Source: a virus
Direction: 5' to 3' (one strand)
Virus record (IMG/VR): IMGVR_UViG_3300020467_000003
Coordinates: 1 to 38,568 of that record
Length of the DNA stretch: 38,568 bases
The notes below the pieces were generated by a model. That model did no database searches, was not told the origin of the DNA, and worked only from the letters and a program-made list of their open reading frames with translations. A program made the translations under genes and the position numbers. Positions 1,394 to 36,325 of the stretch are shown in pieces (the stretch's first letter is position 1; every line of letters begins with the position of its first letter).

Positions 1394-3115
1394 ATGCAAC
1401 CGTTACCAACAAAACTGCAAGACTTTAGATATTTTTTAATTATTACTTGGAGACATTTAAACCTTCCAGACCCTACTCCTGTTCAATTAGACATTGCAGA
1501 ATATCTACAAAGTGGCACTAGACGTAAAATTTTACAAGGATTTAGAGGTGTTGGTAAAAGTTGGATAACTTCTACTTATGTTGTGTGGAAGTTACGAATG
1601 AACCCACAGCTAAAATTTTTAGTTGTAAGTGCAAGTAAAAATAGAGCAGATGATTTTACGACATTTACTATGCGTTTAATTAATGAAATGTCAATATTAT
1701 CTCCGTTAATACCACAAGAACACCAAAGAAATAGCAAAATTAGTTTTGATGTTGCACCTGCAACCGCTTCTCATGCACCTAGCGTTACCAGTAGAGGAGT
1801 TCTTTCACAAATGGCAGGTAGTCGTGCAGATGAAATAATTGCAGATGACGTAGAAGTACCGAATAATTCTTATACACAACCCATGAGAGACAAATTAGCG
1901 GAAGCTGTAAAAGAATTTGAAGCTATTTTAAAACCAAATGGCAACGTTACTTTTCTTGGGACACCACAAGTAGAAAATAGTTTGTATTTAACACTAGAAG
2001 AACGTGGTTATGAGACAAGAATATGGACAGCACGTTATCCAGAATTAAAAAACAATTATGGAGATAGACTTGCTCCATTTATAAAAGAAAGACTAACCAA
2101 TGAATTATCTAAACCTAAAGACCCTGTAGACCCACAAAGATTTACCTCTATAGATCTTATGGAACGTGAAGCATCTTATGGACGTTCTGGTTTTAATTTA
2201 CAATTTCAACTAGATACAACCTTATCTGATCAAGATAGATACCCATTAAAAATATCTGATCTTGTTATTTCTTCTATCAATCAAGAATATGCACCTGAGA
2301 AGATTATATGGTCGAATAATCCAGAATACGTTATACAAGATTTGTCTTGCGTTGGGTTTAATGGTGATAGGTTCTACCGCCCTGCTCAAGAATTTGGAGA
2401 TTTTATTGAATATACAGGTAGTGTGATGTTTATCGACCCCTCTGGGAAGGGAAAAGATGCAACAGGTTATGCTTGTGTAAAGATGTTAAACGGAAATCTT
2501 TTTGTTACTGATGCAGGTGGACTAACAGGTGGCTATTCAGACTTAGTTTTAGAAAAATTATCTAAAATTGCAAGATTTAATAAAATAAATACTATTTTGA
2601 TTGAACAAAACTTTGGTGGGGGTATGTTTGCTGAACTATTAAAACCTTTTCTTATGAGATTTCACCCATGCGAAGTGCAAGATGTAAGAAATAATAAGAC
2701 TAAAGAACTAAGAATTATTGATACTTTAGAACCTGTTATGAACTCTCATAGATTAATAATAGATCGCAAGGTAATTGAAAAAGATTTTAAGTCTAATCAA
2801 GATGAACCACCAGAAAGACGATTAAAATTACAGCTAGTTTACCAACTTAGTAGGATTTCTAGACACAGAGGTAGCTTAGTTAATGATGATATTATTGATG
2901 CTCTTGCAGGTGCAGTTGGTTATTGGACAGAATACATGGCTCAAGATGAAGATAGAAATATTAGATCTAGAAAAGATGAATTATTAATGACTCACCTTGA
3001 TAATTGGGGTGCTGCTGTAAACTCAACTATCACTCAAACTGCTATGGGAATGACTCCTCAACAAATAAGAAATTCTAATGTATCTGACAAGGGTTTTATA
3101 AGGGAATCTTATTAG
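1394..3115 (+). CDS. terL: Terminase large subunit, DNA packaging ATPase-nuclease (T7 gp19-like)
   Basis: About 573 residues, aligning by eye with T7 gp19 (586 aa) along its length. The Walker A motif GFRGVGKS lies at about residues 49-56, the Walker B region is SRADEIIADDVE near 150, and GTPQVENSLY resembles the coupling motif. The C-terminal RNase H-fold nuclease is marked by FIDPSGKGKDATGYA, the LIEQNFGGGMF segment and NDDIIDALAG, which carry the acidic metal ligands. It drives ATP-dependent packaging into the prohead and cuts concatemers. I chose the ATG at 1394, just after the TerS stop; an in-frame TTG at 1379 would overlap TerS. A strong hairpin follows about 45 bases downstream. Confidence 0.97.
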   Translation: MQPLPTKLQDFRYFLIITWRHLNLPDPTPVQLDIAEYLQSGTRRKILQGFRGVGKSWITSTYVVWKLRMNPQLKFLVVSASKNRADDFTTFTMRLINEMSILSPLIPQEHQRNSKISFDVAPATASHAPSVTSRGVLSQMAGSRADEIIADDVEVPNNSYTQPMRDKLAEAVKEFEAILKPNGNVTFLGTPQVENSLYLTLEERGYETRIWTARYPELKNNYGDRLAPFIKERLTNELSKPKDPVDPQRFTSIDLMEREASYGRSGFNLQFQLDTTLSDQDRYPLKISDLVISSINQEYAPEKIIWSNNPEYVIQDLSCVGFNGDRFYRPAQEFGDFIEYTGSVMFIDPSGKGKDATGYACVKMLNGNLFVTDAGGLTGGYSDLVLEKLSKIARFNKINTILIEQNFGGGMFAELLKPFLMRFHPCEVQDVRNNKTKELRIIDTLEPVMNSHRLIIDRKVIEKDFKSNQDEPPERRLKLQLVYQLSRISRHRGSLVNDDIIDALAGAVGYWTEYMAQDEDRNIRSRKDELLMTHLDNWGAAVNSTITQTAMGMTPQQIRNSNVSDKGFIRESY

Positions 3116-3160
3116 GTACTACTATAGGATAAGTGACTGAGCAACACGCACTCTCCAAAG

Positions 3161-3215
3161 AACCTACAGGGTGTCATTCTAAAGCGGTGGTACACCCTAT
3201 AGGTTCAACTTAATT
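3161..3215 (+). terminator. Intrinsic terminator downstream of terL
   Basis: The arms AACCTACAGGGTGT (3161-3174) and ACACCCTATAGGTT (3192-3205) form a 14-bp stem with one G-U pair and a 17-base loop. A run of T (TAATTTTT) follows within a few bases. It would stop transcription of the packaging unit. T7 also insulates this region from the early genes. Confidence 0.65.
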
Positions 3216-3640: not shown

Positions 3641-3714
3641 AAACAAACAACAAATAAAAACAAATTATTAGCAATATTAAAGACAATTAATAAAAAATAT
3701 GTAATACTACTAAT

Positions 3715-3743
3715 AGTAATTATTAATTAATTACTGTTGCTCA
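3715..3743 (+). promoter_or_regulatory. Palindrome plus TTGCTCA leader element before the first early gene
   Basis: A perfect hairpin, AGTAATTA then loop TTAAT then TAATTACT (3715-3735), is followed at once by TTGCTCA (3737-3743), 24 bases before the ATG at 3761. TTGCTCA is shared with three other early leaders at a similar distance from the start codon. The hairpin shares its loop and the GTAA/TTAC closing arms with the dyad at 4744-4764, so it may be an operator or an RNA structure. Confidence 0.45.
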
Positions 3744-3760
3744 ATTCACTTATTAAACAC

Positions 3761-4720
3761 ATGACAACTTCAGCACCTCGAAAATCTAAAAAAGAATTTG
3801 ACCCTAATAAAGGGTATGAAGAGTTAGCTAATGATCTAATTTCTATTATGGAAAAAGGGGTAAACCCATTCAGAAAGAGTTGGACTAGGGAAGCTCAACA
3901 TACAAATTTTGTTACGGGTGAAGCGTATAACAACGGCAACCTTATATGCCTAGAAATTGGTAGATTAACCAGAAATTACAAAAGTAATTATTGGTGCGGA
4001 TTTGCTCAAGCTAGGTCATTCGGTCTATCTATTATTAAAGGGTCTAAAGGCTCTATTATTCTACGTCCAGTAGCTATGAAAAAGCCTTTATTAGATGACA
4101 ACGGAAAACCAATTAAAGATGCTCTAGGCAACCCTGAGTTTTTTTGTTGGACTATATTTGTGCCTTGTAGAGTTTTTAATTTGGATTGTTTCAAGAAAAC
4201 AGAAAAATTAGAAAAAAGACTAAAGGAATTAAACAAAGAAGTATCTGTTAATTATTCACCTATTAGTAGTAGAGAATCAGCCGCAATAAAACAAATTCAT
4301 AATTATGTAAATACTCATAATATTGATTTTGGCGAGGGTGGTAATAGTGCATATTATGACCCTGATGCTGATTCTATAACCGTCCCTAATAAAGAAAGAT
4401 TTAGTAATTATGCTGAATTTATCGCAGTTGCTTTACATGAGTGTGTCCACTCATCAGGAAGTGATAAAAAGGGACGTTTAGCAAGAATTGGAATTACTGA
4501 TAAAAAAGCGGTATTTGGTTCTGAGCTATATGCAACAGAAGAGCTAATTGCTGAAGCGGGTGCATACCTCTTATGTAATGAACTACAAATAGATTCTAAT
4601 AATGAGAGTCACGCTTCTTATCTTGATTGTTGGATTAAACGATTAAAGAAAGAGCCAAAGCATCTATTAACAGTTATTGGTCATTCTGTAAAAGCTAAGA
4701 ACTTAATATTAGGTTCTTAG
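3761..4720 (+). CDS. ArdC-like antirestriction protein (ssDNA-binding domain plus zincin metallopeptidase)
   Basis: A 319-residue protein with the two-part ArdC layout. The N-terminal domain (about 15-150) has the DUF1738/ArdC pattern, including ANDLISIMEKGVNPFRKSW, the YNNGNLICL segment, and FGLSIIKGSKGS followed by an extended FVPCRVFNLDC strand. The C-terminal zincin-like domain carries HECVH (about residues 226-230) and the downstream ATEELIAEAGA segment, which supplies the third ligand or catalytic-side acid. ArdC binds single-stranded DNA and protects incoming DNA from restriction. As the first early gene it occupies the place of T7 ocr, which does the same job by DNA mimicry. The ATG at 3761 is preferred over an upstream in-frame TTG that lies in the leader element. 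Confidence 0.85.
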   Translation: MTTSAPRKSKKEFDPNKGYEELANDLISIMEKGVNPFRKSWTREAQHTNFVTGEAYNNGNLICLEIGRLTRNYKSNYWCGFAQARSFGLSIIKGSKGSIILRPVAMKKPLLDDNGKPIKDALGNPEFFCWTIFVPCRVFNLDCFKKTEKLEKRLKELNKEVSVNYSPISSRESAAIKQIHNYVNTHNIDFGEGGNSAYYDPDADSITVPNKERFSNYAEFIAVALHECVHSSGSDKKGRLARIGITDKKAVFGSELYATEELIAEAGAYLLCNELQIDSNNESHASYLDCWIKRLKKEPKHLLTVIGHSVKAKNLILGS

Positions 4721-4734
4721 TTCTTTTTAGATTC

Positions 4735-4802
4735 TCTCTTATTAGCAGTAATTAATTTACTGCTAGTAAAAGAGATTCTCAATTGAGATCTCTTGTTGCT
4801 CA
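4735..4802 (+). promoter_or_regulatory. Structured leader with two mutually exclusive hairpins
   Basis: Hairpin 1: TCTCTTATT plus the perfect stem AGCAGTAA/TTACTGCT (4744-4764, loop TTAAT) pair back onto AGTAAAAGAGA (to 4775). Hairpin 2: AAGAGATTCTC (4770-4780) pairs with GAGATCTCTT (4785-4794) over an AATT loop, with one bulged base. Both need bases 4770-4775, so they exclude each other. TTGCTCA (4796-4802) follows, 27 bases before the ATG at 4823. The arrangement looks like an attenuator or translational switch, but no U-tract follows either stem. Confidence 0.45.
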
Positions 4803-4822
4803 CGTTATCCCATTTTTTACTT

Positions 4823-5122
4823 ATGGAAACAAAAAAAACCTATCTAGCATTTATGCGTGTTGGTGGCGGTTCATCTTGGTATCAAGGTTCAATAGAACCA
4901 GAACACGCTGCACTTAAATGTGTAAAGCAAGCCAAGAAAGATTGGAGAACCATTTATAAATGGAAACCCGAAACAGAATGGCAAGTTGGTATTTATGACA
5001 TGACCAACCACAAATATGGTTGGGTTGCTGACGTGTTCGGAATATTCCCAAGACTTAAAAATGGGAATGTTTCTAGGAAACGTAAACTTAAGTACTTAAA
5101 AACTGTAAAACTTTACTATTAA
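4823..5122 (+). CDS. Unknown early protein (99 aa)
   Basis: A 99-residue basic protein starting at the ATG at 4823 with a T-rich leader and no Shine-Dalgarno sequence. It contains a Gly-rich start (RVGGGSSWYQGS), several Trp residues in a predicted beta-rich core (YKWKPETEWQVGIYDM), and a strongly basic C-terminus (SRKRKLKYLKTVKLYY). I do not recognise the family. It is the second gene of the early region, flanked by structured leader and intergenic hairpins, and so is probably a host-takeover factor of the kind T7 carries here. Confidence 0.7.
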   Translation: METKKTYLAFMRVGGGSSWYQGSIEPEHAALKCVKQAKKDWRTIYKWKPETEWQVGIYDMTNHKYGWVADVFGIFPRLKNGNVSRKRKLKYLKTVKLYY

Positions 5123-5137
5123 GTCCACTCAGAATCG

Positions 5138-5166
5138 CCTAGAACAGTCCTTAAATCTGTTCTAGG
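5138..5166 (+). other. Perfect intergenic RNA hairpin (possible RNase processing site)
   Basis: CCTAGAACAG (5138-5147) and CTGTTCTAGG (5157-5166) form a perfect 10-bp stem with a 9-base loop between the 99-aa gene and the next small gene. No T-tract follows, so it is unlikely to be a terminator. T7 early mRNAs carry RNase III hairpins in just such intergenic positions; an equivalent role is possible. Confidence 0.55.
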
Positions 5167-5203
5167 TATCTTTACACCCTTACAATTAACAACTTTTCTA
5201 ATT

Positions 5204-5377
5204 ATGGAAAAAACAACTTATGCCGATTATTTGGCAATATCCGAACCTTTTAACGATTGGTTAAAAGAAGTTCCCTTTGGTTTTTGGATTAAAGGTATGA
5301 AAGTAAACAAAGACAATTCTGTTACTTTCATATTTAAAAATTCTTTAGATACAGATAGGTGGCTAAAGAATGACTAA
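5204..5377 (+). CDS. Small unknown early protein (57 aa)
   Basis: A 57-codon ORF (begins MEKTTYADYLAIS, ends DTDRWLKND) with codon use like its neighbours. It is acidic at the N-terminus and contains an aromatic segment (VPFGFWIKGM), followed by a beta-like stretch. It starts 37 bases after the perfect hairpin and ends inside an ATGACTAA overlap with the next ORF, which indicates translational coupling. No family is recognised. Confidence 0.6.
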   Translation: MEKTTYADYLAISEPFNDWLKEVPFGFWIKGMKVNKDNSVTFIFKNSLDTDRWLKND

Positions 5378-5489
5378 AGAAAACAAAATTACTGATGCTT
5401 TTAATAAAGCTATCAACACTAAGGCTATTAATAAACTAGATATTAAAACCCTTAGAAAATTAAATAAAATCCTATCTAAAATAAAATAA
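5370..5489 (+). CDS. Small basic unknown early protein (39 aa)
   Basis: A 39-codon ORF (begins MTKENKITDAFNKA) whose start overlaps the previous gene by eight bases. It is Lys- and Asn-rich with a predicted helical C-terminus (LRKLNKILSKIK). It is followed 28 bases later by an intrinsic terminator, so it ends the first early transcription unit. The overlap and the terminator position are the evidence that it is translated. Confidence 0.5.
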   Translation: MTKENKITDAFNKAINTKAINKLDIKTLRKLNKILSKIK

Positions 5490-5516
5490 TTTATTAAAGC
5501 TAGGTTTACTTTAACT

Positions 5517-5547
5517 AACCCTTTAGTATTTACTAAGGGGTTTTTTT
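5517..5547 (+). terminator. Intrinsic terminator of the first early unit
   Basis: AACCCTTTAGT (5517-5527), loop ATTT, and ACTAAGGGGTT (5532-5542) form an 11-bp stem with one G-T pair. The stem runs directly into seven T residues (5541-5547). This is a textbook rho-independent terminator. A new promoter begins 23 bases later. Confidence 0.88.
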
Positions 5548-5569
5548 ATTGCCAATTTTTTTTATTTAC

Positions 5570-5609
5570 TTGCAATATTGCCAACATTCAGCTAGTTTAG
5601 GTTTGCTCA
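5570..5609 (+). promoter_or_regulatory. Host-type promoter with TTGCTCA start region
   Basis: A -35-like TTGCAA (5570-5575), an exact 17-base spacer and a -10-like TAGTTT (5593-5598) are followed by AGGT and TTGCTCA (5603-5609). The whole arrangement is repeated at 6314-6353: same -35 box, same spacer length, same AGGTTTGCTCA. It lies between a terminator and the 202-aa gene, so it probably restarts transcription by host RNA polymerase. Confidence 0.7.
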
Positions 5610-5627
5610 ATTACTTATTTTCTTATT

Positions 5628-6236
5628 ATGTCAGCACACTTGACCGATCAAGACTGTTTAAACGCCCTTGCAACTTTGTATGGGGAGTTTTATAAACCAC
5701 CTATTTATGTGGACTCACAAAGAGCAATAGATCAAGCCTATTACTTTGCATCAAGTTCAAAAAATTTAGAAAATTGGGAATGTGAAAACATTGCTAGGTT
5801 GCTTTTAAAAGAAGCATCTGAAAAACATAAGGGATTAGCACCACATAAAGTAGTGTTTGATCACTTGTTAGAAGCTAATGTTAACAGTCTTAAATATCGT
5901 TATCCAAAAGACGAGGAGCTAAAACCAGAAGATAGAATTTGGTTTAATAAATACCAATTCAAAAAGTCATCTACGGTTGCTAAATGGGTAGCAGAAAAAG
6001 ACGCAAAGGGTTTACTACAAGTCTACGGTATGCTCAAAGGGTGGGAGTATCAAAGTTGCGAAGACCCAACGTGGCGAAATGATGCAGTTTATCAAATGAA
6101 AGAGCAAATACAATACGCTATTTTGCACTTGTTAGAAGATAAAATTTGCGGTGAAGATAATGTTTGGACTACTTGGAAAGACCCACAACTAGATAGTCAC
6201 ATTGTCAACATTTCAGATATGTTTGCTCGCCATTAA
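5628..6236 (+). CDS. Unknown early protein (202 aa)
   Basis: A 202-residue, largely helical acidic protein with many Trp and Tyr residues. Recognisable stretches include LTDQDCLNALATLYGEFYKPP at the N-terminus and a WKDPQLDSHIVNISDMF segment near the C-terminus. No catalytic motif, zinc site or membrane segment is visible, and I do not recognise the family. It is a single-gene transcription unit: a host-type promoter ends 19 bases upstream, and a strong terminator starts 30 bases downstream. Tight, independent expression by the host polymerase suggests an early host-takeover function. Confidence 0.8.
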   Translation: MSAHLTDQDCLNALATLYGEFYKPPIYVDSQRAIDQAYYFASSSKNLENWECENIARLLLKEASEKHKGLAPHKVVFDHLLEANVNSLKYRYPKDEELKPEDRIWFNKYQFKKSSTVAKWVAEKDAKGLLQVYGMLKGWEYQSCEDPTWRNDAVYQMKEQIQYAILHLLEDKICGEDNVWTTWKDPQLDSHIVNISDMFARH

Positions 6237-6265
6237 TGTATAGTTAAACAAGAGCAACAGTAATT

Positions 6266-6291
6266 AAACCACTCGCAAGGGTGGTTTTTTT
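6266..6291 (+). terminator. Intrinsic terminator after the 202-aa gene
   Basis: AAACCACTC (6266-6274), tetraloop GCAA, and GGGTGGTTT (6279-6287) form a stable stem with one G-T pair and run into a stretch of seven T. It closes the single-gene unit 5628-6236, just before the next host-type promoter. Confidence 0.88.
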
Positions 6292-6313
6292 ATTGGTAAA
6301 TTTATAAATATAC

Positions 6314-6353
6314 TTGCAATATTATATACATACGGTTAAACTAGGTTTGCTCA
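6314..6353 (+). promoter_or_regulatory. Second copy of the host-type promoter with TTGCTCA start region
   Basis: TTGCAA (6314-6319), a 17-base spacer and TAAACT (6337-6342) are followed by AGGT and TTGCTCA (6347-6353). The start codon of the next gene lies 24 bases after the first base of TTGCTCA. The near identity with the promoter at 5570 shows a duplicated regulatory cassette. It probably drives the long run of small genes that follows. Confidence 0.7.
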
Positions 6354-6370
6354 GTTTATTTTATCTAACT

Positions 6371-6739
6371 ATGGCATTAAAAAAGACACGCAAGAATGAA
6401 AAAACTTGCGAACATATTGGAGTTAATGTACATTCTTTTGAACGTCATTTAACTTATGGGTTGCAATTTACTAATGTAAATATATTAGATTTTCACCCAA
6501 ATTTTATACAAGATAAGAGAACAGGTAAACATATAGGTTGGCTGTTCTTACAAGACAAGGAAAACCCAGAAACCTGCACAATGGTTTTTGAGGATAGAGT
6601 AGAGTTTCCTATTAGTGACCAAGTTATTTATTTTAACAATGAACAGTCACCATCAAAATTAGCAGCAGTTTTTCTTGCAGCAATTCTTACTAAAAATCCT
6701 TTTTTACCTATGTGTCCAAAGTGTCAGGAGGGTAATTAG
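6371..6739 (+). CDS. Unknown early protein (122 aa)
   Basis: A 122-residue protein with a basic start (MALKKTRKNEK), a single Cys-His cluster near the N-terminus (TCEHIGVNVHSFERH), a hydrophobic helix near the C-terminus (LAAVFLAAILTKNPF) and a final MCPKCQEGN. The CPKC pair plus the N-terminal Cys and His residues could bind one zinc ion, but the arrangement is not a recognised finger. It follows the second host-type promoter, has no Shine-Dalgarno sequence, and heads an operon of small overlapping genes up to the integrase. Confidence 0.75.
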   Translation: MALKKTRKNEKTCEHIGVNVHSFERHLTYGLQFTNVNILDFHPNFIQDKRTGKHIGWLFLQDKENPETCTMVFEDRVEFPISDQVIYFNNEQSPSKLAAVFLAAILTKNPFLPMCPKCQEGN

Positions 6740-6741
6740 TA

Positions 6742-6906
6742 ATGGAAACAAAAAACTTTAAAAAGAACCTAGAGTGGCAAACCGATCAACGTTTGATAGG
6801 TCAAAAGCAACTACTAGAAGAACATACAAAAGCAATAGAACAAATAGAAAAAACTATTGTTGAATTAAAAGAACTAAAAAAAGTATTAAAGGGGGTAAAC
6901 CAATGA
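6742..6906 (+). CDS. Small coiled-coil protein (54 aa)
   Basis: A 54-codon ORF starting two bases after the previous stop, with a GGAGGG-containing upstream sequence as ribosome binding site. The protein (begins METKNFKKNL) has heptad-like hydrophobic spacing in its second half (IEQIEKTIVELKELKKVL), suggesting a short coiled coil. Its stop overlaps the next ATG by four bases. Function unknown. Confidence 0.6.
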   Translation: METKNFKKNLEWQTDQRLIGQKQLLEEHTKAIEQIEKTIVELKELKKVLKGVNQ

Positions 6907-7064
6907 AAAAATTTTTAGTTGTAAATCACGTTACTACAGAAAAATTAATTGAAGCTGAAACAAGAGAAGAAGCTATAGAAGTATCACACACAACACCACC
7001 AGATACTCTAAGCGATAGGTTGGAGGTTAGCTTTGTAGTTGACAAGGGGGTGCAAAATGATTGA
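6903..7064 (+). CDS. Small unknown protein (53 aa)
   Basis: A 53-codon ORF coupled to its neighbours by short overlaps at both ends. The protein begins MKKFLVVNHVTTEKLIEA and has the pattern of a short beta-alpha-beta domain: strand, then a charged helix (AETREEAIEV), then a strand (VSFVVDKG). An AAGGGGG stretch upstream is a good ribosome binding site. I do not recognise the family. Confidence 0.6.
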   Translation: MKKFLVVNHVTTEKLIEAETREEAIEVSHTTPPDTLSDRLEVSFVVDKGVQND

Positions 7065-7164
7065 ATTATTTTTAATTGTTGGCGGTGCATACTCACTTTA
7101 TTTAGTGGGTATGGCTATTGCTACTCACCTAGATTATAGGAGGGTTAGCAATGAAAAAAGATAG
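7057..7164 (+). CDS. Single-span membrane miniprotein (35 aa)
   Basis: A 35-codon ORF overlapping both neighbours, preceded by AAGGGGG at suitable spacing. The protein starts MIELFLIVGGAYSLYLVG and continues MAIATHL, so residues 3-24 form one transmembrane helix, followed by a short basic tail. Such miniproteins are frequent in early regions of marine podoviruses. Its role is unknown. Confidence 0.5.
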   Translation: MIELFLIVGGAYSLYLVGMAIATHLDYRRVSNEKR

Positions 7165-7282
7165 ATACAAACAACTTTTATTTGAAGAAAGATTTAAATT
7201 TAATCTTGAACTATTAGATTTTCCAGAAGAAAATACTTTGGGTTGGAGATTAGCTTTAGAGATGACTGAGGTGGAACTATGA
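7151..7282 (+). CDS. Small unknown protein (43 aa)
   Basis: A 43-codon ORF (begins MKKDRYKQLLFEERF) with an AGGAGGG ribosome binding site about eight bases upstream of the ATG. It overlaps the membrane miniprotein by 14 bases and the next gene by four. It is highly charged, with an amphipathic helix and an LGWRLALEMTE segment. No family is recognised. Confidence 0.6.
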   Translation: MKKDRYKQLLFEERFKFNLELLDFPEENTLGWRLALEMTEVEL

Positions 7283-7491
7283 AAAAAGATAATAGAAAAT
7301 TTATTCCAATACCCAAAGATGAGTATTTCAAAAAGATTACTAAATACCAATGGGAGTGTCCTTTTGATCGGTCACTCTCATGTCAAAGTGTAATTAGAAA
7401 AGACCCATCTGACGGTCACTCATACTTCATTGCTTCAATAAAGATGCGTGTACCTATTAATAAAAGAGATTGGAGTGCAGAAGATGAATAA
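7279..7491 (+). CDS. Small unknown protein (70 aa)
   Basis: A 70-residue protein beginning MKKDNRKFIPIPKDEYF. It has a basic N-terminus, two Cys residues in the middle (WECPFDRSLSCQSV) and a C-terminal acidic end. The similar MKKD start to the preceding gene may reflect duplication of a 5' end, but the rest is not obviously related. It overlaps the genes on both sides by four and eight bases. Function unknown. Confidence 0.65.
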   Translation: MKKDNRKFIPIPKDEYFKKITKYQWECPFDRSLSCQSVIRKDPSDGHSYFIASIKMRVPINKRDWSAEDE

Positions 7492-7786
7492 AAAAATCTT
7501 TGCATACAAATCAGATTTACATGGTAGGTGGTTCTGGTTGACTGATGGGTTCGATCTTAGGTCGCACCCATTTATAGAACAAAAACTATTTACTGATGTT
7601 TATATGCCTATAGCAGAGACTACAGGCGATTTTGTTTGTGATTGGTCTTGCTTTGATGACCTCGACATGGAGCAACATCAAGAACTAATAAAGATACAAA
7701 AAACTTTATTTTGTTTTGAGCATATGCAGAAGCAATTGGACAATACAGAATTAAGACACATTCACTTAATACAAATGGAGGACTAA
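7484..7786 (+). CDS. Unknown early protein (100 aa)
   Basis: A 100-residue protein starting at the ATG at 7484, inside the end of the previous gene. It is acidic, Trp- and Asp-rich, with HGRWFWLTDGFDLRSHPF near the start and a helical C-terminus. No motif is recognised. A GGAGGAC sequence at its end serves the next gene. An in-frame TTG at 7448 was rejected because it lies deep in the upstream gene. Confidence 0.7.
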   Translation: MNKKIFAYKSDLHGRWFWLTDGFDLRSHPFIEQKLFTDVYMPIAETTGDFVCDWSCFDDLDMEQHQELIKIQKTLFCFEHMQKQLDNTELRHIHLIQMED

Positions 7787-7789
7787 TTT

Positions 7790-7993
7790 GTGGAATTAAC
7801 AGAAGAACAAAAAGCAACATCATTAAGGTTTGATGCTGATGCTGTTATGGAACAACTCATAACACAAGAGAGTAGCCACAGGAGAATGTCAGCGTTAGTT
7901 GAGTATCAACTTGTATATCCTGACATGACTATTAGAGAGTTCTTTGCTATGGCAAGTGAAGATGAAGATGAAGAAGAGGAGGACGAGGAGTAA
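7790..7993 (+). CDS. Small acidic-tailed protein, GTG start (67 aa)
   Basis: A 67-residue protein that uses GTG at 7790, supported by a strong GGAGGAC ribosome binding site and the lack of a nearby ATG. The helical body (TIREFFAMAS) ends in an almost purely acidic tail of Asp and Glu (DEDEEEEDEE), encoded by a GAT/GAA/GAG repeat. Acidic tails of this sort can mimic DNA or interact with DNA-binding proteins; the role here is unknown. Its stop shares a base with the next ATG. Confidence 0.7.
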   Translation: MELTEEQKATSLRFDADAVMEQLITQESSHRRMSALVEYQLVYPDMTIREFFAMASEDEDEEEEDEE

Positions 7994-8199
7994 TGCTTAA
8001 ATGTCCTTATTGTGATAGTACTAATAACATTTGTGTTAGTACTATTAATAGAGCCAATATCAACGGTAAACAACGCCAAGTTAATTACGTTTGGCGTAGG
8101 CGTAAATGTTCTAATTGTGGTGAAAAATTTACCACACATGAAAAAACAGAACAGGAGTGGACAAAAGAAAAATATTTAAATTTATTAGAAAAACTTTAA
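7993..8199 (+). CDS. NrdR-type zinc-ribbon protein (68 aa)
   Basis: A 68-residue protein made of one zinc ribbon: CPYC at residues 4-7 and CSNC near 39-42, followed by GEKFTTHEK. The pattern CPxC, then RRRKC, xxC, x(K/R)FTTxE is that of the N-terminal domain of NrdR, the ribonucleotide reductase repressor. The ATP-cone domain of real NrdR (about 150 aa) is absent. It is therefore a stand-alone DNA-binding ribbon rather than a nucleotide sensor. No ribonucleotide reductase gene is present in the phage, so its target may be host or phage promoters. It lies immediately upstream of the integrase. Confidence 0.75.
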   Translation: MLKCPYCDSTNNICVSTINRANINGKQRQVNYVWRRRKCSNCGEKFTTHEKTEQEWTKEKYLNLLEKL

Positions 8200-8211
8200 T
8201 TTTTTATTACT

Positions 8212-9069
8212 ATGCTCAGTCACAAATCTAAAGGTATGAAAGTGCCTACTCTTTCCCAAGCTACTCATACCTATTACAAGCGAAGGCTCAACGGTCTAAC
8301 TAGTGCCGATAATTATCTAAAAACTATGCGGATAATTATAAAAATATTAGGTGATAAACCAGTTAATAAAATTGGCGTTTCTGACGTTAATAAGCTGATA
8401 GATTACTTAGTACAAAACAAGAAAAAGAACAGCACTATAAACTCTTATAAAGGTAGATTAGAAACTACTCTTAGAGAGATGGTGCAAGCGGGTTACATTG
8501 AACCATTAGTAGCTACAAAAAATTTAAGAGAAGGTGATAAAGATATACATATATTAAATGATGATATGGAAGATAAATTAATATATAAATTTAAAGAATT
8601 AGATTTTTTATTACACAAAGAAATTTCATTAATAGGTTTAGAAACTGGTCTAAGATGGGGGGAAATGTTCGAGGTTAGAAAAAGAAATATAGATTTAAAT
8701 TATGGTCAAATGACTATTGAATCAAGAAAAAATTTTACACAATTAACAATACCTTTAACAGAAAAAGCAGCAAAATTAATATACGATCATCTAGGTTTTT
8801 GTGATGATAATGATAGGGTTTTTCCTTTTGATAGTAAATGGAAATATGGAGGGTGGAATATTGCTAGACGTGATCTAGGTTACGAAAAAACAAATTGGTA
8901 TGTACCACATATCACAAGACATACAGCGTGTACTCGAATGTTGCAGAAAGGCGTACCACTACCAGTAGTGTCTAATTGGTTAGGTCATAAAAGCATAGCA
9001 GTTACTATGAGATATGCACACTTTGTACCGTCAATAATGAACCAATATAAGGAGCTATTAAACAAATGA
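8212..9069 (+). CDS. int: Tyrosine recombinase (phage integrase)
   Basis: A 285-residue lambda-type integrase. The core-binding domain covers about residues 10-90. The catalytic domain contains all expected residues: Arg148 in ETGLRWGEM, His233 and Arg236 in HITRHTACTRML, His in the WLGHKS motif near 259, and the nucleophile Tyr268 in TMRYAHF. It should integrate and excise the phage genome by site-specific recombination. An integrase just upstream of the RNA polymerase gene is typical of potentially temperate marine T7-like phages. The start is uncertain: ATG at 8212 lies inside a TGCTCA element, and a second ATG at 8236 lies exactly 24 bases after it, the spacing seen in other early leaders. 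No adjacent attP was recognised. Confidence 0.93.
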   Translation: MLSHKSKGMKVPTLSQATHTYYKRRLNGLTSADNYLKTMRIIIKILGDKPVNKIGVSDVNKLIDYLVQNKKKNSTINSYKGRLETTLREMVQAGYIEPLVATKNLREGDKDIHILNDDMEDKLIYKFKELDFLLHKEISLIGLETGLRWGEMFEVRKRNIDLNYGQMTIESRKNFTQLTIPLTEKAAKLIYDHLGFCDDNDRVFPFDSKWKYGGWNIARRDLGYEKTNWYVPHITRHTACTRMLQKGVPLPVVSNWLGHKSIAVTMRYAHFVPSIMNQYKELLNK

Positions 9070-18453: not shown

Positions 18454-18716
18454 TGCCTAAAAAAAAATCTGTTTCTTTAAGAAAAGAGCATAAAAGCAAA
18501 ACAGGTGGTCTTACAAAAAAAGGGCGTGAAAAAGTTAATAGAGAAACAGGTAGTAAATTAAAAGCACCAGTTACAGGCAAAGTAAAACGTGGCAGTAAAG
18601 CAGCTAAAAGACGCAAATCTTTTTGTGCCAGAATGAAAGGTGTTAAAGGTGCTACAAGTAAAGGTGGTAAATTGACTAGAAAAGGTTTAGCTCTTAAAAA
18701 ATGGAAGTGTAATTAA
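18453..18716 (+). CDS. Small Lys-rich protein (DUF6321-like)
   Basis: An 87-residue, very basic protein. The N-terminus is Lys/Arg-rich (MPKKKSVSLRKEHKSKTGG) with TKKGREKVNRETG, and the C-terminus has KRRKSFCARMKGVKG followed by LTRKGLALKKWKC. The SFCARM and KWKC pattern is that of the small domain that I know as DUF6321, found in many phages and viruses. Its role is unknown; it may bind nucleic acid in the virion. It overlaps the scaffold stop by one base (TAATG), and its own stop shares the TTAA at 18713-18716 with the stop of the convergent minus-strand gene. Confidence 0.8.
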   Translation: MPKKKSVSLRKEHKSKTGGLTKKGREKVNRETGSKLKAPVTGKVKRGSKAAKRRKSFCARMKGVKGATSKGGKLTRKGLALKKWKCN

Positions 18717-18970
18717 GTCCAATTAATTTCTTTTTTTGCTGCTGTTAATTTATCAGTATCAGTAATCTTAGTTAAAGTAACAGTACTGTTAACTAATAGT
18801 GTTGGGTCAAAACCTGTTTCTGCTACAACAACAGTACCTATCTTTAACCATTTTTTTAATTTACTAGAATCATTTGTGGTTTCACTCATACCAGAACCCC
18901 ATGATTCCTCTTTGCCTGTATAAGCTAAACGGTAAAATTCTGAATAATCAGTTGCTTTAAATTCTGCCAT
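18713..18970 (-). CDS. Small unknown protein at the end of the tail module (85 aa)
   Basis: An 85-residue protein (begins MAEFKATDYSEFYRLAYTG) with a mixed alpha-beta look and a Ser/Thr-rich middle. It follows the large fibre gene by four bases and is the last gene of the leftward virion unit. It could be a tail-fibre accessory or chaperone because of this position, but nothing in its sequence shows that. Its stop codon uses the same TTAA tetranucleotide as the stop of the convergent gene, and no terminator is visible. Confidence 0.7.
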   Translation of the reverse strand: MAEFKATDYSEFYRLAYTGKEESWGSGMSETTNDSSKLKKWLKIGTVVVAETGFDPTLLVNSTVTLTKITDTDKLTAAKKEINWT

Positions 18971-18974
18971 TAGT

Positions 18975-21900
18975 TTAATCTCCTGTGTATTGATTCCAAT
19001 TTGATCTTATCCAACAACCGTAGCTTGAGCTATGGTAATCTCCGATCATATACCAAGAGTTATCTCCTTGTCTAAACCACTCTCCTGATTTAGTAATAAT
19101 AGAACTAGCAGTTTCACTATTACCTGAGTGATGATGTGTAAATCCACCTTCAGCAATCATTTCGGGTGTACCCCACCAAGGCACAAAGTAATTTGTCCAT
19201 GAGTTGTTTTGTGCATAATAAGCGTTGTTACCGTCAGCTTCAAGATATGGAGTAGTCACATAGTTCCAATAACCTGCAACAAATAGCCTTCCTTCATCAT
19301 CTTCTAATACAACTCTGTTTGCATTATCTCCATCTCCACCTCTGGGGTGAATTTTTACAATAGTTCCTATTGCTAACTTTTTATAGTTTGCGTGTGATGA
19401 ATCATCTCTAAATGAATGTATAGTTCCAATTACTTCATTTGGTCTGGAATCATTAGAACCACCTGTATTTAAACTTGGGTCACCAAAATCTCTAAACTGT
19501 ATCTCTGCACCAAACCAATCTGTACTGTTGTTGTTAGCACTTGTAGTTCTACCAGTTCCCTGTTGTCCATAATCGTTGTAACCAGTAGCATATATTTTCT
19601 GGTTATAGCCAGTACTTCCTCCGTCAGTAATAAAGTATAAAGTTGAATATCTACAATTATTACAAGCCATATATATTACTTTTTGATTATTACTATTCCA
19701 CATAGTACTTGAGTTAGTAAGTAGTTCTGGAAGTGTACTATTAGTTGGACTACTTTGATAAACTCCACCACTTGCTCCATGTGCGTGACCTTTATAACCT
19801 GCAAAATAAACTTTACCTTCATCAGTTAATATCCAAACTTTATTTTCGTCATCTCCATCTTGGTTAGCAATAACATGAACTACTGTTTTACCATTAATAG
19901 GCGAACCTGTTACCCCTGTCATTTCTACAGGTGTATTTTGTTGTGTTGTATTACCTAACCCAAGCTGTCCATTGCCATTTCTACCCCAACACCATAACTT
20001 ACCTGACTCTGTTATTGCATAAACAGAAGTATAATAATAACCACTTGAAGCTATGTATATAATTTTTTCATTACCTACTCTACTCATAGGCATTTGTTTT
20101 GCGTAATAGTTATTGCTAGTAGTGTTATCTCCTAGCTGTCCATATCCGTTATAACCCCATGTATATAGCTTTCCGTTTGTATCTAACATTCTAGTAGAGT
20201 AATAACTGACGTTATCGCCAGTAAAGTTTTGAGCATTAGAAAATTCTATAAATTTGATTTTAGGGTGGTTTGCTCCTGTTAATCTTGCTCCTGAGTCATC
20301 AAAAAATACGACACCCATACCTGCTGCGTTTAAATCCCATGTACTACCGTTACCCCATATTCCATAACCTCCATAACCTGCTGCCATAACCATGCCATTT
20401 TCAAATAACTGGTAACCATGCTTACCTGATTTGTGCATTTGCATTAACTTAGGCCATAAGTATTTTAATTTTCCATTTTGGTCATACAAATCAAGAGCAT
20501 TACCATTTAGATCGGTTAACAAATGTGCATAGTCAGAGTGTCCCGCAAGTGCTTCTTCCCAGAATTTAGGTGTTCTATTGACCCCTTCAGCAGGGTAACT
20601 ATGAGTTCCGTTATAAGCACTTACACCATAAACTCCATAGCCACTACCATAAGTGTAGTCATAACTACTTGTATGATAGTGATTACCAAATTCAACATAC
20701 TTTCTTAAACCTAAAGCACCTCCTCTTCTATAACCTGCTGTGCAACAACCATATAAAAATCCTCTACCACTTTTTTTAAGATATGCAGGTAAAGCCCATA
20801 AACTTTCTGTATAGTTATTTATTGTTGCGTTGGGGAAATGACAAAATCCTTTTACTAAATCTTTTGGTACATCATAAGGTTGTTGAACAAGATCTTTTTT
20901 ATAAACAGTAGTACCAGACCAAGAAGGAACAGTTTTTAAATTTTTTAACGTTAAAGATATACTATCTGCTTGGTTTGCTTCATCACGAATAACAACGCTA
21001 GTTAATGTACTTCCCGAAGCGGGTGTATAAGTTATCGTTCCTCCGTTAGTCACAAATTGAGGTGCAGCACTACCGTCTGTTATTCTTCCACCGTTACCTG
21101 CTCCACTATATCCACTAGCAGCAGGGTCTTTAACTGAATAAGTTAAACCGTTAGCAGGGAAAGTAAATGAATATGATTTTCCTTTTGTAATATTGATGTT
21201 TGATGTTAAATTATTGTTTCTATATATTCTTGGTATTTCTGAACCTGCAGCAGCAGTAGTGTATGAAGTGTTTATCACACCATCTGACATACCAGAATGA
21301 ACAGAGCAACCATATCTCAAAATATATAAAGCAGGTGCTTTTGGAGTAAATGTAATTGTTGCTCCCGCTTGACCTGCTGTACCGCTTCTTACAATTCCAA
21401 AATCAGATTCACTATATCCAGTACCATTAACAAAAGCATACGCTGAACTTGTCCAATATTTAAAAGCAAAAACGTGACCTGTATTACTAGCATCACTAAC
21501 ATCAAAAACATATTGTGAGCCAACTTTAATAGTTATTGTAGGTCTTTCAACAGTTCCAGAAAGACTACCACCACTAAGATGAAATTGATTTTGACCGCTT
21601 ACTGCTGCTACTGTAACTGTATAATTAACAGATTCATAAGTTTCTCTTGCATCACCTGTTAACCATGCGTGTCTAGTTCCTCCAACAAGTATCGGATTAT
21701 ATTCATAGTTACCTTCATTTGGTATATCTTCTAAAGGTTTTTCTATAACACTTAGCTGAGAACCTACTTCGCCAATAGGCAACTGTACATTTGATACGTC
21801 ATCATTATCTCTAAATATCATTCCTCCTGACGCTGTTAATACAGATGCACTAGGAGCATTAACTAAGGTAGCAAAATTAGAATCAGTACTAGGGTTACTA

Positions 21901-22211
21901 GAACTAGAACTAATAATATAGTTTAAAACTGTGCCTTTATAAATATAAGTTGCGTTGTTGTATGTAACTAAATCTCCTTTTTTAAACCCTTGACCTTGCG
22001 AATAATTACCTCTGTAATTAAGACCACTAGCCATTTGGCTATAGTTAGTGCCATCTTGTGATGGTGCTATGTTTTGAGAAGTTGACAAATCCGTTAATAC
22101 TACATAACTTGTGCCTTCAAAATAAACAATGTCATCTACTTCATATGCTGTGTTAGCAGCCCAAGTTCCTTTCCATTGAAACTTTAGTTTACCTAAATCA
22201 ATTTGTGCCAT
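18975..22211 (-). CDS. Large tail fibre or adhesin with cupredoxin-like domain and RCC1-like beta-propeller (1078 aa)
   Basis: A 1078-residue virion protein immediately downstream of the T7-type fibre. Residues 11-100 contain two carbohydrate-binding-like beta repeats (WKGTWAANTAYEVDDIVYF and YSQGQGFKKGDLVTYNN). Residues about 195-320 resemble a cupredoxin: His246 in TGHVFAF and Cys302, His305, Met308 in YGCSVHSGM, the ligand set of type 1 copper sites. Residues 605-1057 hold seven RCC1-like units, starting near 605, 680, 737, 799, 871, 974 and 1043; the best are GKLYTWGYNGYGQLG and GKLWCWGRNGNGQLG. Seven units make a complete propeller. It probably forms the receptor-binding part of the tail; host-range variation would be expected here. 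Confidence 0.85.
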   Translation of the reverse strand: MAQIDLGKLKFQWKGTWAANTAYEVDDIVYFEGTSYVVLTDLSTSQNIAPSQDGTNYSQMASGLNYRGNYSQGQGFKKGDLVTYNNATYIYKGTVLNYIISSSSSNPSTDSNFATLVNAPSASVLTASGGMIFRDNDDVSNVQLPIGEVGSQLSVIEKPLEDIPNEGNYEYNPILVGGTRHAWLTGDARETYESVNYTVTVAAVSGQNQFHLSGGSLSGTVERPTITIKVGSQYVFDVSDASNTGHVFAFKYWTSSAYAFVNGTGYSESDFGIVRSGTAGQAGATITFTPKAPALYILRYGCSVHSGMSDGVINTSYTTAAAGSEIPRIYRNNNLTSNINITKGKSYSFTFPANGLTYSVKDPAASGYSGAGNGGRITDGSAAPQFVTNGGTITYTPASGSTLTSVVIRDEANQADSISLTLKNLKTVPSWSGTTVYKKDLVQQPYDVPKDLVKGFCHFPNATINNYTESLWALPAYLKKSGRGFLYGCCTAGYRRGGALGLRKYVEFGNHYHTSSYDYTYGSGYGVYGVSAYNGTHSYPAEGVNRTPKFWEEALAGHSDYAHLLTDLNGNALDLYDQNGKLKYLWPKLMQMHKSGKHGYQLFENGMVMAAGYGGYGIWGNGSTWDLNAAGMGVVFFDDSGARLTGANHPKIKFIEFSNAQNFTGDNVSYYSTRMLDTNGKLYTWGYNGYGQLGDNTTSNNYYAKQMPMSRVGNEKIIYIASSGYYYTSVYAITESGKLWCWGRNGNGQLGLGNTTQQNTPVEMTGVTGSPINGKTVVHVIANQDGDDENKVWILTDEGKVYFAGYKGHAHGASGGVYQSSPTNSTLPELLTNSSTMWNSNNQKVIYMACNNCRYSTLYFITDGGSTGYNQKIYATGYNDYGQQGTGRTTSANNNSTDWFGAEIQFRDFGDPSLNTGGSNDSRPNEVIGTIHSFRDDSSHANYKKLAIGTIVKIHPRGGDGDNANRVVLEDDEGRLFVAGYWNYVTTPYLEADGNNAYYAQNNSWTNYFVPWWGTPEMIAEGGFTHHHSGNSETASSIITKSGEWFRQGDNSWYMIGDYHSSSYGCWIRSNWNQYTGD

Positions 22212-22213
22212 AA

Positions 22214-23173
22214 TTAAAGATCAATAATTAGATGTCCATTAGAGTTCAATGTAATCTTTGGAGCATTGGGAGCATTGGAGTCAAGAATGTCATCACCTAA
22301 AAAATAGGCTAAAGTCTCTCCTTTTGCAACAAAATCAGAAGTCTTGTAGACAACTGAATTTGCGTCACTAGCTAAATTATATATCATTCGCAACATACCG
22401 CTAGTTAATCTTTTAAATCCTACAAATACCGTAGCTCTAGTTAGGTTCTGTGCTGTAGACGCTGCATTAGTTGCAGTAACAGCAGATGCAGCAGCTTGTG
22501 TTGCACTCGCAGCAGCTTGTGTCGCTGATGAAGCAGCAGCAGCAGCACTACTACTCGCTTGTCCAATAGCTGTATTTGCGTTTGCTATACCTGCATCTAA
22601 CTGTCCTTTGTTAACAGCATCAGTTGCAGCAGAACCATCACCAAGATTAGAAATTTTATTTGAATTTGCATTTAATGTACCTGCCATATTGACAGAACCA
22701 TCAGCTTTTATAAATGCCTGTGTATCTATAAAATTCTTTGTTACTGCGTCTTGTGCATCAACTGGGTCTGCAACATTTTTTAAAATTTTATTATTAGCAC
22801 TTAAATTTGTACCTAATGGGACAACTCCTGACGCTGTATCATCTGCGTTTTCTTGTAAAGCAAATAATATCTGTTCTGTATTAGTATCAAGATCTGATTC
22901 TGTTAAAACACTACCGTCTTGGAAATCAACTTTTTTTGCACTTATATCTGTATTTCTTTGTAATCTTATAGCAGCACCATTAACAGGTATTTCAGAACTA
23001 ATAAATTCTATAGTTTGTCCAGAAACAGTAAAATGTGTCCCTAATGTTTTAGTAACTCCATCTACAGTTACATTAACTTCTTCATCAGATAAAAAAGCAA
23101 ATGATATTGCAAAAGTATCTGATGTACCATTACCTTGATGTGTTACAAATGAGGGCGTATTATTAGTTGCCAT
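22214..23173 (-). CDS. T7-type tail fibre adaptor (gp17 N-terminal domain, 319 aa)
   Basis: A 319-residue protein whose first 130 residues match the T7 gp17 N-terminal tail-attachment domain: FVTHQGNGTSDTFAISF, FLSDEEVNVTVDGV, IRLQRNTDISAKKVDFQDGS and LTESDLDTNTEQILFALQE. A region of VTKNFID and KISNLGDG collagen-like/fibre-shaft repeats follows, then an Ala/Ser/Thr-rich coiled coil (AAASSATQAAASATQAAAS) and a short C-terminal domain. T7 gp17 has 553 residues with the receptor tip on the same chain; here the chain stops short. The 1078-aa protein directly downstream, two bases away, probably supplies the receptor-binding tip. Confidence 0.9.
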   Translation of the reverse strand: MATNNTPSFVTHQGNGTSDTFAISFAFLSDEEVNVTVDGVTKTLGTHFTVSGQTIEFISSEIPVNGAAIRLQRNTDISAKKVDFQDGSVLTESDLDTNTEQILFALQENADDTASGVVPLGTNLSANNKILKNVADPVDAQDAVTKNFIDTQAFIKADGSVNMAGTLNANSNKISNLGDGSAATDAVNKGQLDAGIANANTAIGQASSSAAAAASSATQAAASATQAAASAVTATNAASTAQNLTRATVFVGFKRLTSGMLRMIYNLASDANSVVYKTSDFVAKGETLAYFLGDDILDSNAPNAPKITLNSNGHLIIDL

Positions 23174-23175
23174 TT

Positions 23176-26100
23176 TTATCTACCACCATAGACGTTTTTA
23201 AATGTTTCATTTTCTTTAATAGTTTCCCTATATTGTAACTCTAATTTCATTTTATCTTTAATTACATTTTGTACAAATGGCTCATCTTGATGATCTATAA
23301 AGAATTTTTCTTTACCTGCACGTTTATAAAATCTAATAATATCATCTAAACCTAAAGTATGCCCTACTGTTGGGTCACCTTCTACTACAAAATTTCTTAG
23401 TTTTTCAAATTTTCCTTCATTTTTTATAACCTTATTATTACGTCTATATTTTTCTATTTCTTCCATATGAGCAATAATATGTGGTTGATCAAAATATGCA
23501 GATATTGCTTCTCTTATATTCATATCTCCAAACCTTTGATAGCCTTCTGTACCTTTTGGAAACGTAAAATTATTAATGTATCTTACTAATTTATTATATT
23601 TAGGACTAGTTAAACCAACATCAACACTTTCTATTCCATCAACAGGATTTAATAAGTCTACATTTTGTTTTAAGTTTGGATTTGGTGGTTCGGGTAAATA
23701 ATTTAAAATTTTAAAATTAGTAATTAATGGATTATTTCTACTTGTAGATTGATTGACCCAATTTAATAACCATAATCCCTCACTTTGTTTATACTTTTTA
23801 ACTTTTTCATCAGTAATAAATTCATACTCAAATGGATATTTTGCTTCGTTATCGTCATTAACTCCATCACCTGCACCAAATATATGTTCATCTAATAATA
23901 TTTTAAAGTTTCTTAACCACCCTAATTTATCAAATCTAGTACTTAACATTTTTTTGTTTCTTAAATTTTGATATTCACTCTCAGTCATAACTCCTGAGTT
24001 TCTAAGACCTAAACCAACATCATGTTTTAAATCTTTTAAAATTCTTGGTGCTATTGATGTAAGAATATTTCTTTGCAACCATGTTTTATTTTTTGCGGGG
24101 TCTTCAATAAATTTAAAGAAATCTTGTATGCCAAACATATTACCTTTATTTAAAATTGATCTTACGGTGTAATATGACAAACTAGTAACAAATTCACCAA
24201 ATGTTTGTTCTGGTAATTGATCTGCTACTTTAAATAAATTCATAGCATTTATTAATACTTGTGATATAGGGTCTAACTTTTGTATCGAATAATAGTCATA
24301 TACTGGTTTGTTATCTTCACCTATTACTGGTTGTCCATCTTTTTGACGCAAAATACCAATTGATTCTGGTAATTCACCACTCATTTTTTGTAATTTTACT
24401 TTAGTTTTTTCCCAATCACCGCCAAAATAATTATCTGATGTTCCTTGAAAAATTACTTTTGGTGGATTATCAGGGTCATTTTTTTTGTACATATTTAGTA
24501 CAGTTGCAAATGCAGGTAACAAAATAATATTGCCTAACATCAATTGACCTCTAGCCTGTCTTGCAACCATAGGGTCTAAACTTTTTAGATCTTGCCAAAG
24601 TTCTGGCATTAAAAAGTTAACTATAGGTGTTCTTCTCCAACCACGTTTCATTAAATTAACAGGTGATCGTAAGAAAAACATAAAACGTTTTGCTATTGGT
24701 GATGTTGACGTTATACGATTTGCACCATCAGCAACTTGTCCAAAAATAAATCCTTTATTAAATATTGGCTCAGTAAACGTTTGTCTTTTTGCAAACTCTA
24801 ATGATTGTTGCAATGCTTCTGCAAAATCATCATCTATAATTCCATTTTTTAATGCTTTTCTAGATTTACTAAGTAACAACTCTTGCATAGCTTTTAAATA
24901 ACCTTGTACATGATCAGTTAACTCTTGACCTGTTTTGCCTAATTTCATACCAGATCTAAATCCATGAAACGTCATAGACCCATTTAATGCACCTGCTTGA
25001 AACAAAGCGTCCATAGTAGTCATAACTTTACTACCACCTCTAAATGCTTGAGTTGGAAAATTAAAGCCTTCATCTAACAATGGCAACCTATCTGAAAAAG
25101 GTACTTTCATTTGACCATCAAGAAATGCTGCTGTTGCTTCTCCTAATGGTGTATTACGAAATTCAAAAGCAGGGATAGAAACTTTCTTACCGCCAAGATT
25201 ATATGTTTGTCCAGTAAACGGAAGTTGACCTTCAATCAATTGACTAGAAAAAGCTCTTTCACTTACGTTTTCTAATTTTGTATTTCTTGGGTTAATAATA
25301 TTAACATCAGTCAACCATGATTTTTTAGCAACTTCATTTATAAATTCTAAGTCAGTAAACATACCAGTAAATGCTTTTAAATTTTCTTGGTACATTCTTG
25401 TATCGCCTTTAAATGCTTTAAGCATTGCATAAGGGTCTAACATCATTTCAACACCAAAAAATAGTGACTCAAGACTATTAGAAACAAAGTTAACTGTTAA
25501 TGTTGTTGGGTGAAACAATAATAAGTTAATACTTAAATCAGTTAATGGGTGTAATATTTTATCGTTTAAAATTGCAGTTAATAAATTTTGTTCAAACAAC
25601 TTTTGTAGCTTTTGTGGGTCACCGTTTGCTCTATTTAAGACTCCAAATAAATTATCTAACTTTGTATAATCACCATCTTTCATAGCTTCTGCGTGTGCTT
25701 CATATATTTTTTCTTGAAAATCACTAAATCTTTTACTGTAATTTTTTGAGTTATAAATAACTTCTTCTTTTAACTTTGCCCTAAATTTAAATTTTTCTGA
25801 TTCTGGTAATTTAGCCCAATCTTCTGGATTAATACCCATAGTAGGTATTTGCATAGCTTTTAAACCTTGACCTGTTTTACTTCCAATAGGTACTGCGAGT
25901 TCTATCCATTCATCTATTTCTTTCATGTTATTCAGCACTTTTCCTATATTTGCATCAACAAAACTATAATCTTCATTTCTTATTGCCATTTTTAATCTTT
26001 TAGATAAGTCTGTATTTTTGTTAGCTAATAAAGTGATTTGTTCTGCTAACGCATAATTCATTTCATCTAAAGGTTCTAAGTTTAATATTTCTGCTAACGC

Positions 26101-31778: not shown

Positions 31779-31779
31779 T

Positions 31780-36164: not shown

Positions 36165-36166
36165 AG

Positions 36167-36274: not shown

Positions 36275-36304
36275 AAAAAAAGGGTATCTAATAATAGAAT
36301 ACCC
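36275..36304 (-). terminator. Intrinsic terminator after the capsid gene (T-phi equivalent)
   Basis: On the minus strand GGGTATTCTA, loop TTAT, and TAGATACCC form a nine-pair stem with one bulged T, followed by seven T (complement of 36275-36281). It lies 21 bases after the capsid stop. T7 has its main late terminator T-phi in exactly this place after gene 10, which keeps capsid mRNA more abundant than tail mRNA. Confidence 0.8.
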
Positions 36305-36325
36305 CATTTTATAGATTTAGGTAGA

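Follow-up and report, generated by a model that had tools for sequence, protein, structure and literature searches.

T7-like phages halt early transcription via proteins that act on the host polymerase. In T7 itself, the promoter phi-OR follows the terminase gene at the right end of the genome and probably serves replication priming or genome packaging. We know of no regulatory small RNA from T7 phi-OR. PMC12197685 presents the phage antisense RNAs OOP, sar, aQ and CfrI as having one target each, in most cases in cis. The cyanophage P-SCSP2 is an MPP-C cyanopodovirus, a member of a group without DNA polymerase, and its lysis times are erratic, according to PMC9860041. Among the papers listed by our literature searches, none reported an antisense RNA with several targets arising from phi-OR of a T7-like phage, nor one in cyanophages, although such a report may still exist in print.

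Here we analyzed IMG/VR virus record IMGVR_UViG_3300020467_000003, positions 1 to 38,568 (the window). This 38,568-base contig carries a T7-type RNA polymerase, an integrase, a terminase and an antirestriction-like first gene. The heptamer TTGCTCA recurs before its early start codons, and the reverse complement TGAGCAA lies in a candidate small RNA behind the terminase gene. We propose, with a probability of about two in three, that the phage encodes an antisense RNA that targets the TTGCTCA elements at several genes and probably represses early mRNAs and the integrase.

By DNA, the window is closest among named phages to P-SCSP2 and P-SCSP1, which infect Prochlorococcus, and to an uncultured marine phage. 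The host is therefore probably Prochlorococcus. The window terminase is 81% identical to that of P-SCSP2, and no DNA polymerase was evident by eye in the list of open reading frames (ORFs).

TTGCTCA sites at early start codons

The original prediction, made from the letters of the window, listed TTGCTCA at 3737, 4796, 5603 and 6347, each 24–27 bases before an ATG that lacks a Shine-Dalgarno sequence, and ATGCTCA at 8212, 24 nt before an ATG at 8236. We confirmed these positions. The four TTGCTCA copies are on the plus strand, and the ATGs that follow them, at 3761, 4823, 5628 and 6371, are 24, 27, 25 and 24 nt away, respectively. We also confirmed that there is no Shine-Dalgarno (SD)-like sequence at any of the starts 3761, 4823, 5628, 6371 and 8212. 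When 16 early-region starts were examined, six proved to be SD-less (3761, 4823, 5204, 5628, 6371 and 8212). The site was found at five of these six starts versus none of the ten starts with SD.

By number, the heptamer is not enriched. It occurs 9 times in the window compared with 6.7 ± 2.6 times in shuffled sequences, and 22 of 100 shuffles gave 9 or more. Placement was compared on early ORFs of at least 45 aa on both strands. TTGCTCA lies 15–35 nt upstream of 4 out of 15 such ORFs; the mean for 300 heptamer permutations, TTGCTCA itself included, was 0.04. It is the position of TTGCTCA, not its frequency, that is out of the ordinary. Chance clustering was rejected by this placement test together with the co-occurrence across phages described below. 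The TTG of the element was also considered as an alternative start codon and rejected, since in several leaders its reading frame differs from that of the ATG (spacings of 22, 23, 25 and 26).

All five sites are on the plus strand. Site 1 (3734–3755, TTGCTCA at 3737–3743) is in the leader of the antirestriction-like gene, whose start is at 3761. Site 2 (4793–4811, TTGCTCA at 4796–4802) precedes the gene starting at 4823, and site 3 (5593–5620, TTGCTCA at 5603–5609) the gene starting at 5628. Site 4 (6344–6367, TTGCTCA at 6347–6353) is in the leader of the gene starting at 6371, the first in the gene run leading to the integrase. Site 5 (8212–8230) comprises the integrase start codon and the following codons (ATGCTCAGTCAC). 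Relatives were fetched with the integrase, 5628-gene, antirestriction and terminase proteins. The leaders and the integrase start retain the element wherever a contig covers them, with the exception of leader 3, which is absent as such in L001.

The integrase had been expected to start at 8236 if the spacing rule held, and this was refuted by alignment with eight other contigs (L001, L002, L003, L004, L005, L104, L105 and L106). The position of 8236 is ACG, ACA or ATT in these contigs, so that the ATG is unique to the window among the nine, whereas all of them retain ATGCTCAGT at 8212. Because L105 and L106 came from a pattern search containing ATGCTCAGT, they are not independent for that word; much of the other material from that search consisted of unrelated chance matches and was dropped, and only these two contigs were used. 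L105 has a different ATG two codons past the position of 8236. The alignment indicates that the tyrosine integrase (8212–9069, plus strand; PHROG integrase, 1.5e-43) begins at 8212 and that the element overlaps its start codon.

Candidate small RNA behind the terminase gene

An antisense copy of TTGCTCA at 3144–3138, overlooked in the original prediction, lies 11 nt past the inferred start of a T7-like promoter. This phi-OR-type promoter, ACTATAGGA (3104–3127, plus strand), is directly past the terminase stop, with the core TACTATAGG at 3120–3128 and the inferred start at G3127. We take the 3120–3128 core to be like the T7 promoter core. Nearly all related loci linked to a terminase have a TATAGG core immediately after that gene.

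The candidate RNA (3127–3206, plus strand) would consist of a 5′ hairpin (3127–3156) followed by a terminator-like hairpin with a T-run (3160–3206). Its predicted length is ∼80 nt in the window and about 65–70 nt in relatives. The TGAGCAA seed (3138–3144, plus strand), the reverse complement of TTGCTCA, sits toward the apex of the 5′ hairpin, unchanged in 13/13 aligned contigs. It lies within the first 30 nt behind ACTATA; the chance of finding it in a 30-mer of these phages is 0.0031. We refer to the window, L001, L003–L005, L012–L014, L019, L022, L023, L024 (the same as L104) and L026 as type A. A type-A transcript would read GGATAAGTGACTGAGCAACACGCACTCTCC or close variants, and then a strong hairpin of phage-specific sequence.

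The window RNA folds at −28.3 kcal/mol (z −3.4), and the whole-RNA fold has z-scores of −2.95 to −3.39 in five phages. A G-C pair of the 5′ hairpin is replaced by A-U in 3 of 9 sequences. In the second hairpin the structure is retained while the sequence is replaced between phages, and two pairs are changed on both sides yet still paired. A covariance model of the RNA matched 6/6 type-A phi-OR sources and nothing else below E 0.06 among 77 sources. Rfam gave nothing near the gathering score for the candidate RNA, and an exact-pattern search of a genome contig collection for a host or prophage copy returned 0 matches. The T7-type single-subunit RNA polymerase of the phage (9283–11691, plus strand; PHROG RNA polymerase, 2.6e-161) is the likely transcriber of the candidate RNA.

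A side observation concerns other phi-OR regions. Behind the terminase gene of L027–L092, several groups seem by eye to have a phi-OR 5′ hairpin with a loop like AAGGUUCGU or AGGUCUGG.

Predicted pairing between the RNA and its sites

The conserved seed is complementary to several mRNAs at their translation start regions. The predicted duplexes of sites 1–5 with the first 18–27 nt of the RNA have energies of −23.7, −18.9, −20.0, −20.3 and −23.1 kcal/mol, respectively. The site 1 duplex uses nt 1–21 of the RNA. At the integrase, site 5 would form 11 contiguous pairs, and the pairing would cover the start codon.

In all, 41 sites of 13 loci gave duplexes of −16.3 to −24.0 kcal/mol, and full shuffling gave p ≤ 0.010 for every one of them; a large share of the 41, however, come from closely related phages and so do not count as independent. 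When only the flanks were shuffled and TTGCTCA or ATGCTCA was held constant, 22 of the 41 sites had p < 0.05. These include 12/13 leader-1 sites (p ≤ 0.014) and 6/6 integrase sites (p ≤ 0.002). For window sites 1–5, the flank-shuffle p values were 0.004, 0.19, 0.13, 0.048 and 0.000.

The same RNA and sites could also serve the opposite purpose, with pairing activating or stabilizing the SD-less early mRNAs by protecting their 5′ ends. Most sites coincide, exactly or closely, with where the mRNA is expected to begin, 24–27 nt before the AUG, and they occur at SD-less starts only, as activation would suggest. However, pairing at the integrase covers the start codon and would hinder initiation. 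Moreover, the RNA, if made by the phage polymerase, would arrive after the early genes are needed. We consider activation unlikely.

Co-occurrence of RNA and sites across related phages

All 13 contigs whose phi-OR has TGAGCAA carry leader sites (41/82 starts). Of 67 contigs whose phi-OR is without TGAGCAA, 55 have starts to examine, and sites were found in 2 of the 55 (2/411 starts). L104 was left out of this count as a copy of L024. When 81 phi-OR RNAs were tried on each leader set, the five best were type A for all 9 type-A sets (8 contigs). For 38 other leader sets, the phage's own RNA ranked fifth or better in just three cases, L006, L027 and L062.

The antirestriction gene shows the joint behavior of site and RNA. 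The gene of L008–L011 shares up to 82% identity with its L003 counterpart and falls within the genes of site-bearing type-A phages; in the antirestriction tree, two label changes are forced by starred branches. The L008–L011 antirestriction leaders have no TTGCTCA, and the phi-OR of L008 and L010 has no TGAGCAA (phi-OR was not seen for L009 and L011). Because these genes nest among type A yet their leaders lack the site and the phi-OR of L008 and L010 lacks the seed, gene and site have become separated at least once, the site going with the RNA. The antirestriction gene has thus moved from one phage group to another without its leader.

The phi-OR RNA may instead serve replication priming or genome packaging, with the match of UGAGCAA to the leaders arising by chance or from shared repeat ancestry. 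Nearly all relatives have the promoter, including those without UGAGCAA, and for this reason phi-OR probably has another role as well. As a full explanation, however, it leaves both the 13/13 versus 2/55 contigs and the joint switch with the antirestriction gene unaccounted for, and we judge it very unlikely.

Other leader words were seen in relatives. L006 (2100–5450), L008, L010 and L011, which are without TTGCTCA, have a different recurring leader, AAACTTACCTTTnAGGAACCACA-ATG, before several early genes. The phi-OR RNAs of L006 (1690–1720) and L062 have a conserved hairpin loop, UUUGUGUCCUAG, which by eye is partly complementary to their own UAGGAACCACAAA leaders. Ranked among the 81 RNAs, the own RNA was 5th for L006 and 2nd for L062. 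A second RNA-leader pair in L006 and L062 is possible as a weak lead; beyond it, no matching RNA-leader pair was found in other phage groups with the 81 phi-OR RNAs.

Transcription signals around the sites

Promoters of the form TTGCAA-17-TAnnnT lie ahead of two sites, those at 5603 and 6347; in both, 4 nt separate the second hexamer from TTGCTCA. This part of the original prediction was borne out, and the spacing also holds in relatives. The host-type promoters are TTGCAA-17-TAGTTT before site 3 (5570–5598, plus strand) and TTGCAA-17-TAAACT before site 4 (6314–6342, plus strand). Both were read directly and missed by a consensus scan, and both are kept in relatives. Site 2 and the integrase site have no recognizable promoter in front.

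The element had been read either as a signal of a host promoter class or as a 5′-UTR element for translation without SD. What stands is a 5′-UTR element at SD-less early starts, kept in relatives; the host promoter class does not. Two sites are at the expected start point of the TTGCAA-17-TAnnnT promoters, as a host start signal would be. However, in 280 kb from a Prochlorococcus genome, 0 of the 252 leaders of genes contain TTGCTCA, and GGTTTGCTCA had 4 matches in 7 Prochlorococcus genomes versus 4 for the reversed control. (One further reversed-pattern host control creates CG and is unfair, and its count was not used.) A ribosome-binding element pairing with 16S was not supported, as TGAGCAA is absent from the host 16S gene. 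In addition, 53/55 related contigs without the RNA are also without such a leader. A host promoter-class start signal, or a host-type 5′-UTR element for non-SD translation, is highly improbable on these counts.

TTGCTCA could also act as DNA, bound by a phage regulator or a host factor at early promoter starts and, inverted, at phi-OR. Sites 3 and 4 are at a fixed distance from their promoters, and the phi-OR copy is likewise just behind a promoter. On the other hand, the element lacks palindromic symmetry, no promoter is recognizable ahead of either site 2 or the integrase site, and the five genic copies share one orientation opposite to that of the phi-OR copy. The flank matches track the complement of the RNA, and the compensatory change in the 5′ hairpin points to RNA. 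We think a DNA element quite unlikely.

Several hairpins surround the sites. An AT-rich inverted repeat (3711–3739, plus strand) adjoins site 1, with two pairs changed on both sides in 5/10 sequences. Between gene 1 and site 2 there is a 20-bp hairpin (4730–4778, plus strand; z −6.6) with compensatory pairs. An alternative, competing hairpin adjoins the TTGCTCA of site 2 (window 4730–4795), and its helix shows an A-U to G-C change. This hairpin pair might be an RNase III site or a bistable leader. Terminator-like hairpins at 5517–5542 and 6266–6287 finish just ahead of the promoters of sites 3 and 4, and another at 4693–4722 finishes at the gene-1 stop, upstream of site 2. Because terminator-like hairpins end at these places, each site probably opens a new unit.

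Proposed mechanism

We propose that transcription of the RNA begins at the T7-like promoter that follows the terminase gene, where T7 has phi-OR, and that the phage RNA polymerase is most likely responsible. This polymerase, itself made in the early phase, would then transcribe the RNA. The first 30 nt would fold as a hairpin displaying UGAGCAA, and the second hairpin would end or protect the RNA. UGAGCAA and its flanks would pair in trans with UUGCUCA of the four SD-less early leaders and with the integrase start codon and next codons. Pairing in the cell, which we infer from sequence, would most likely bar ribosome entry and/or open the mRNA to RNase. With the phage polymerase at work, the host-transcribed genes of the first wave would be silenced along with the integrase, and the infection would commit to lysis.

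Several points weigh against this proposal. The promoter was called from resemblance and position, and a search of the rest of the window gave no further exact copies of its motif. Taken by itself, the 5′ hairpin has only modest stability (z about −1.2). At leaders 2 and 3, the flanks match the RNA poorly (p 0.03–0.27). In an energy scan of the whole window, only 3 of the 5 sites were among the 14 best of 15,412 windows, and coding stretches scored up to −27.8, so the sites are not unique best partners. The RNA variant of L012–L014 pairs better with its own sites at 2/7 and worse at 5/7, the seed itself being invariant. The L105 integrase has ATGCTCAGTTAC, which would match the GUAAC variant of L012, and the L105 contig is without the RNA. 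L105 is from the same sample as L012 (3300030406) and is not linked to it; a search among phages for an L105-like record found none. A site 24 nt upstream of the AUG is at the edge of the range where pairing usually blocks initiation. Finally, type A may be a single clade, which would leave few independent events in the co-occurrence.

In its widest form, the proposal is that a T7-like, integrase-bearing ocean phage turned its right-end (phi-OR) transcript into a trans-acting antisense RNA addressing a 7-nt word in nearly all SD-less early mRNAs and the integrase start. The arrival of the phage RNA polymerase would shut off the host-transcribed first wave and tip integration to lysis, a one-RNA switch for both early-to-late and lysis-lysogeny. 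We regard the case for this wide form as evenly balanced. If true, one antisense RNA made by the phage polymerase, with a common leader word, would be a different and economical end to early expression. It would also give a direct handle on how integrase-bearing cyanopodoviruses choose lysis. The proposal predicts a short RNA detectable in infected Prochlorococcus or in ocean metatranscriptomes.

Comparison with known systems

Unlike what is known of T7 phi-OR, the candidate transcript is predicted to fold into hairpins, to end at a terminator and to be complementary to leaders of early genes. Searches of phage collections found no close isolate of a type-A phage. P-SCSP2 (OM416780) resembles the window in its similar early and replication gene order, the integrase before the RNA polymerase, the apparent absence of a DNA polymerase gene and a phi-OR-like promoter behind the terminase gene (PMC9860041). 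In contrast, its phi-OR is without TGAGCAA and its early leaders are without TTGCTCA. The structural block of the window (18713–37312; tail and major capsid protein, MCP) is on the minus strand and that of P-SCSP2 on the plus strand. This is unlikely to be the error of one assembly, since the sister contig of L001 is the same (MCP minus, portal plus).

LUZ100 is likewise T7-like with temperate features and an integrase before the RNA polymerase, and antisense RNA was seen in it by transcriptomics; however, that RNA is in the structural region, and the lysogeny control proposed is MarR-based (PMC10134795). The remaining comparisons draw on PMC12197685. CfrI of cyanophage S-PM2, antisense to psbA, is also a cyanophage antisense RNA, whereas it acts in cis, is about 225 nt long and has a proposed role in psbA intron control (PMC12197685). 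OOP RNA of lambda, antisense to cII, is, like the candidate, a short phage RNA that pairs with a phage mRNA and favors lysis. OOP is a cis RNA with a single target, whereas the candidate would come from the other genome end, with five imperfect targets and a T7-like promoter (PMC12197685). The sar RNA of P22, which represses ant translation, is similar in that pairing interferes with translation initiation of a phage gene (PMC12197685). While sar has one named target there, the candidate would carry an address word common to several leaders.

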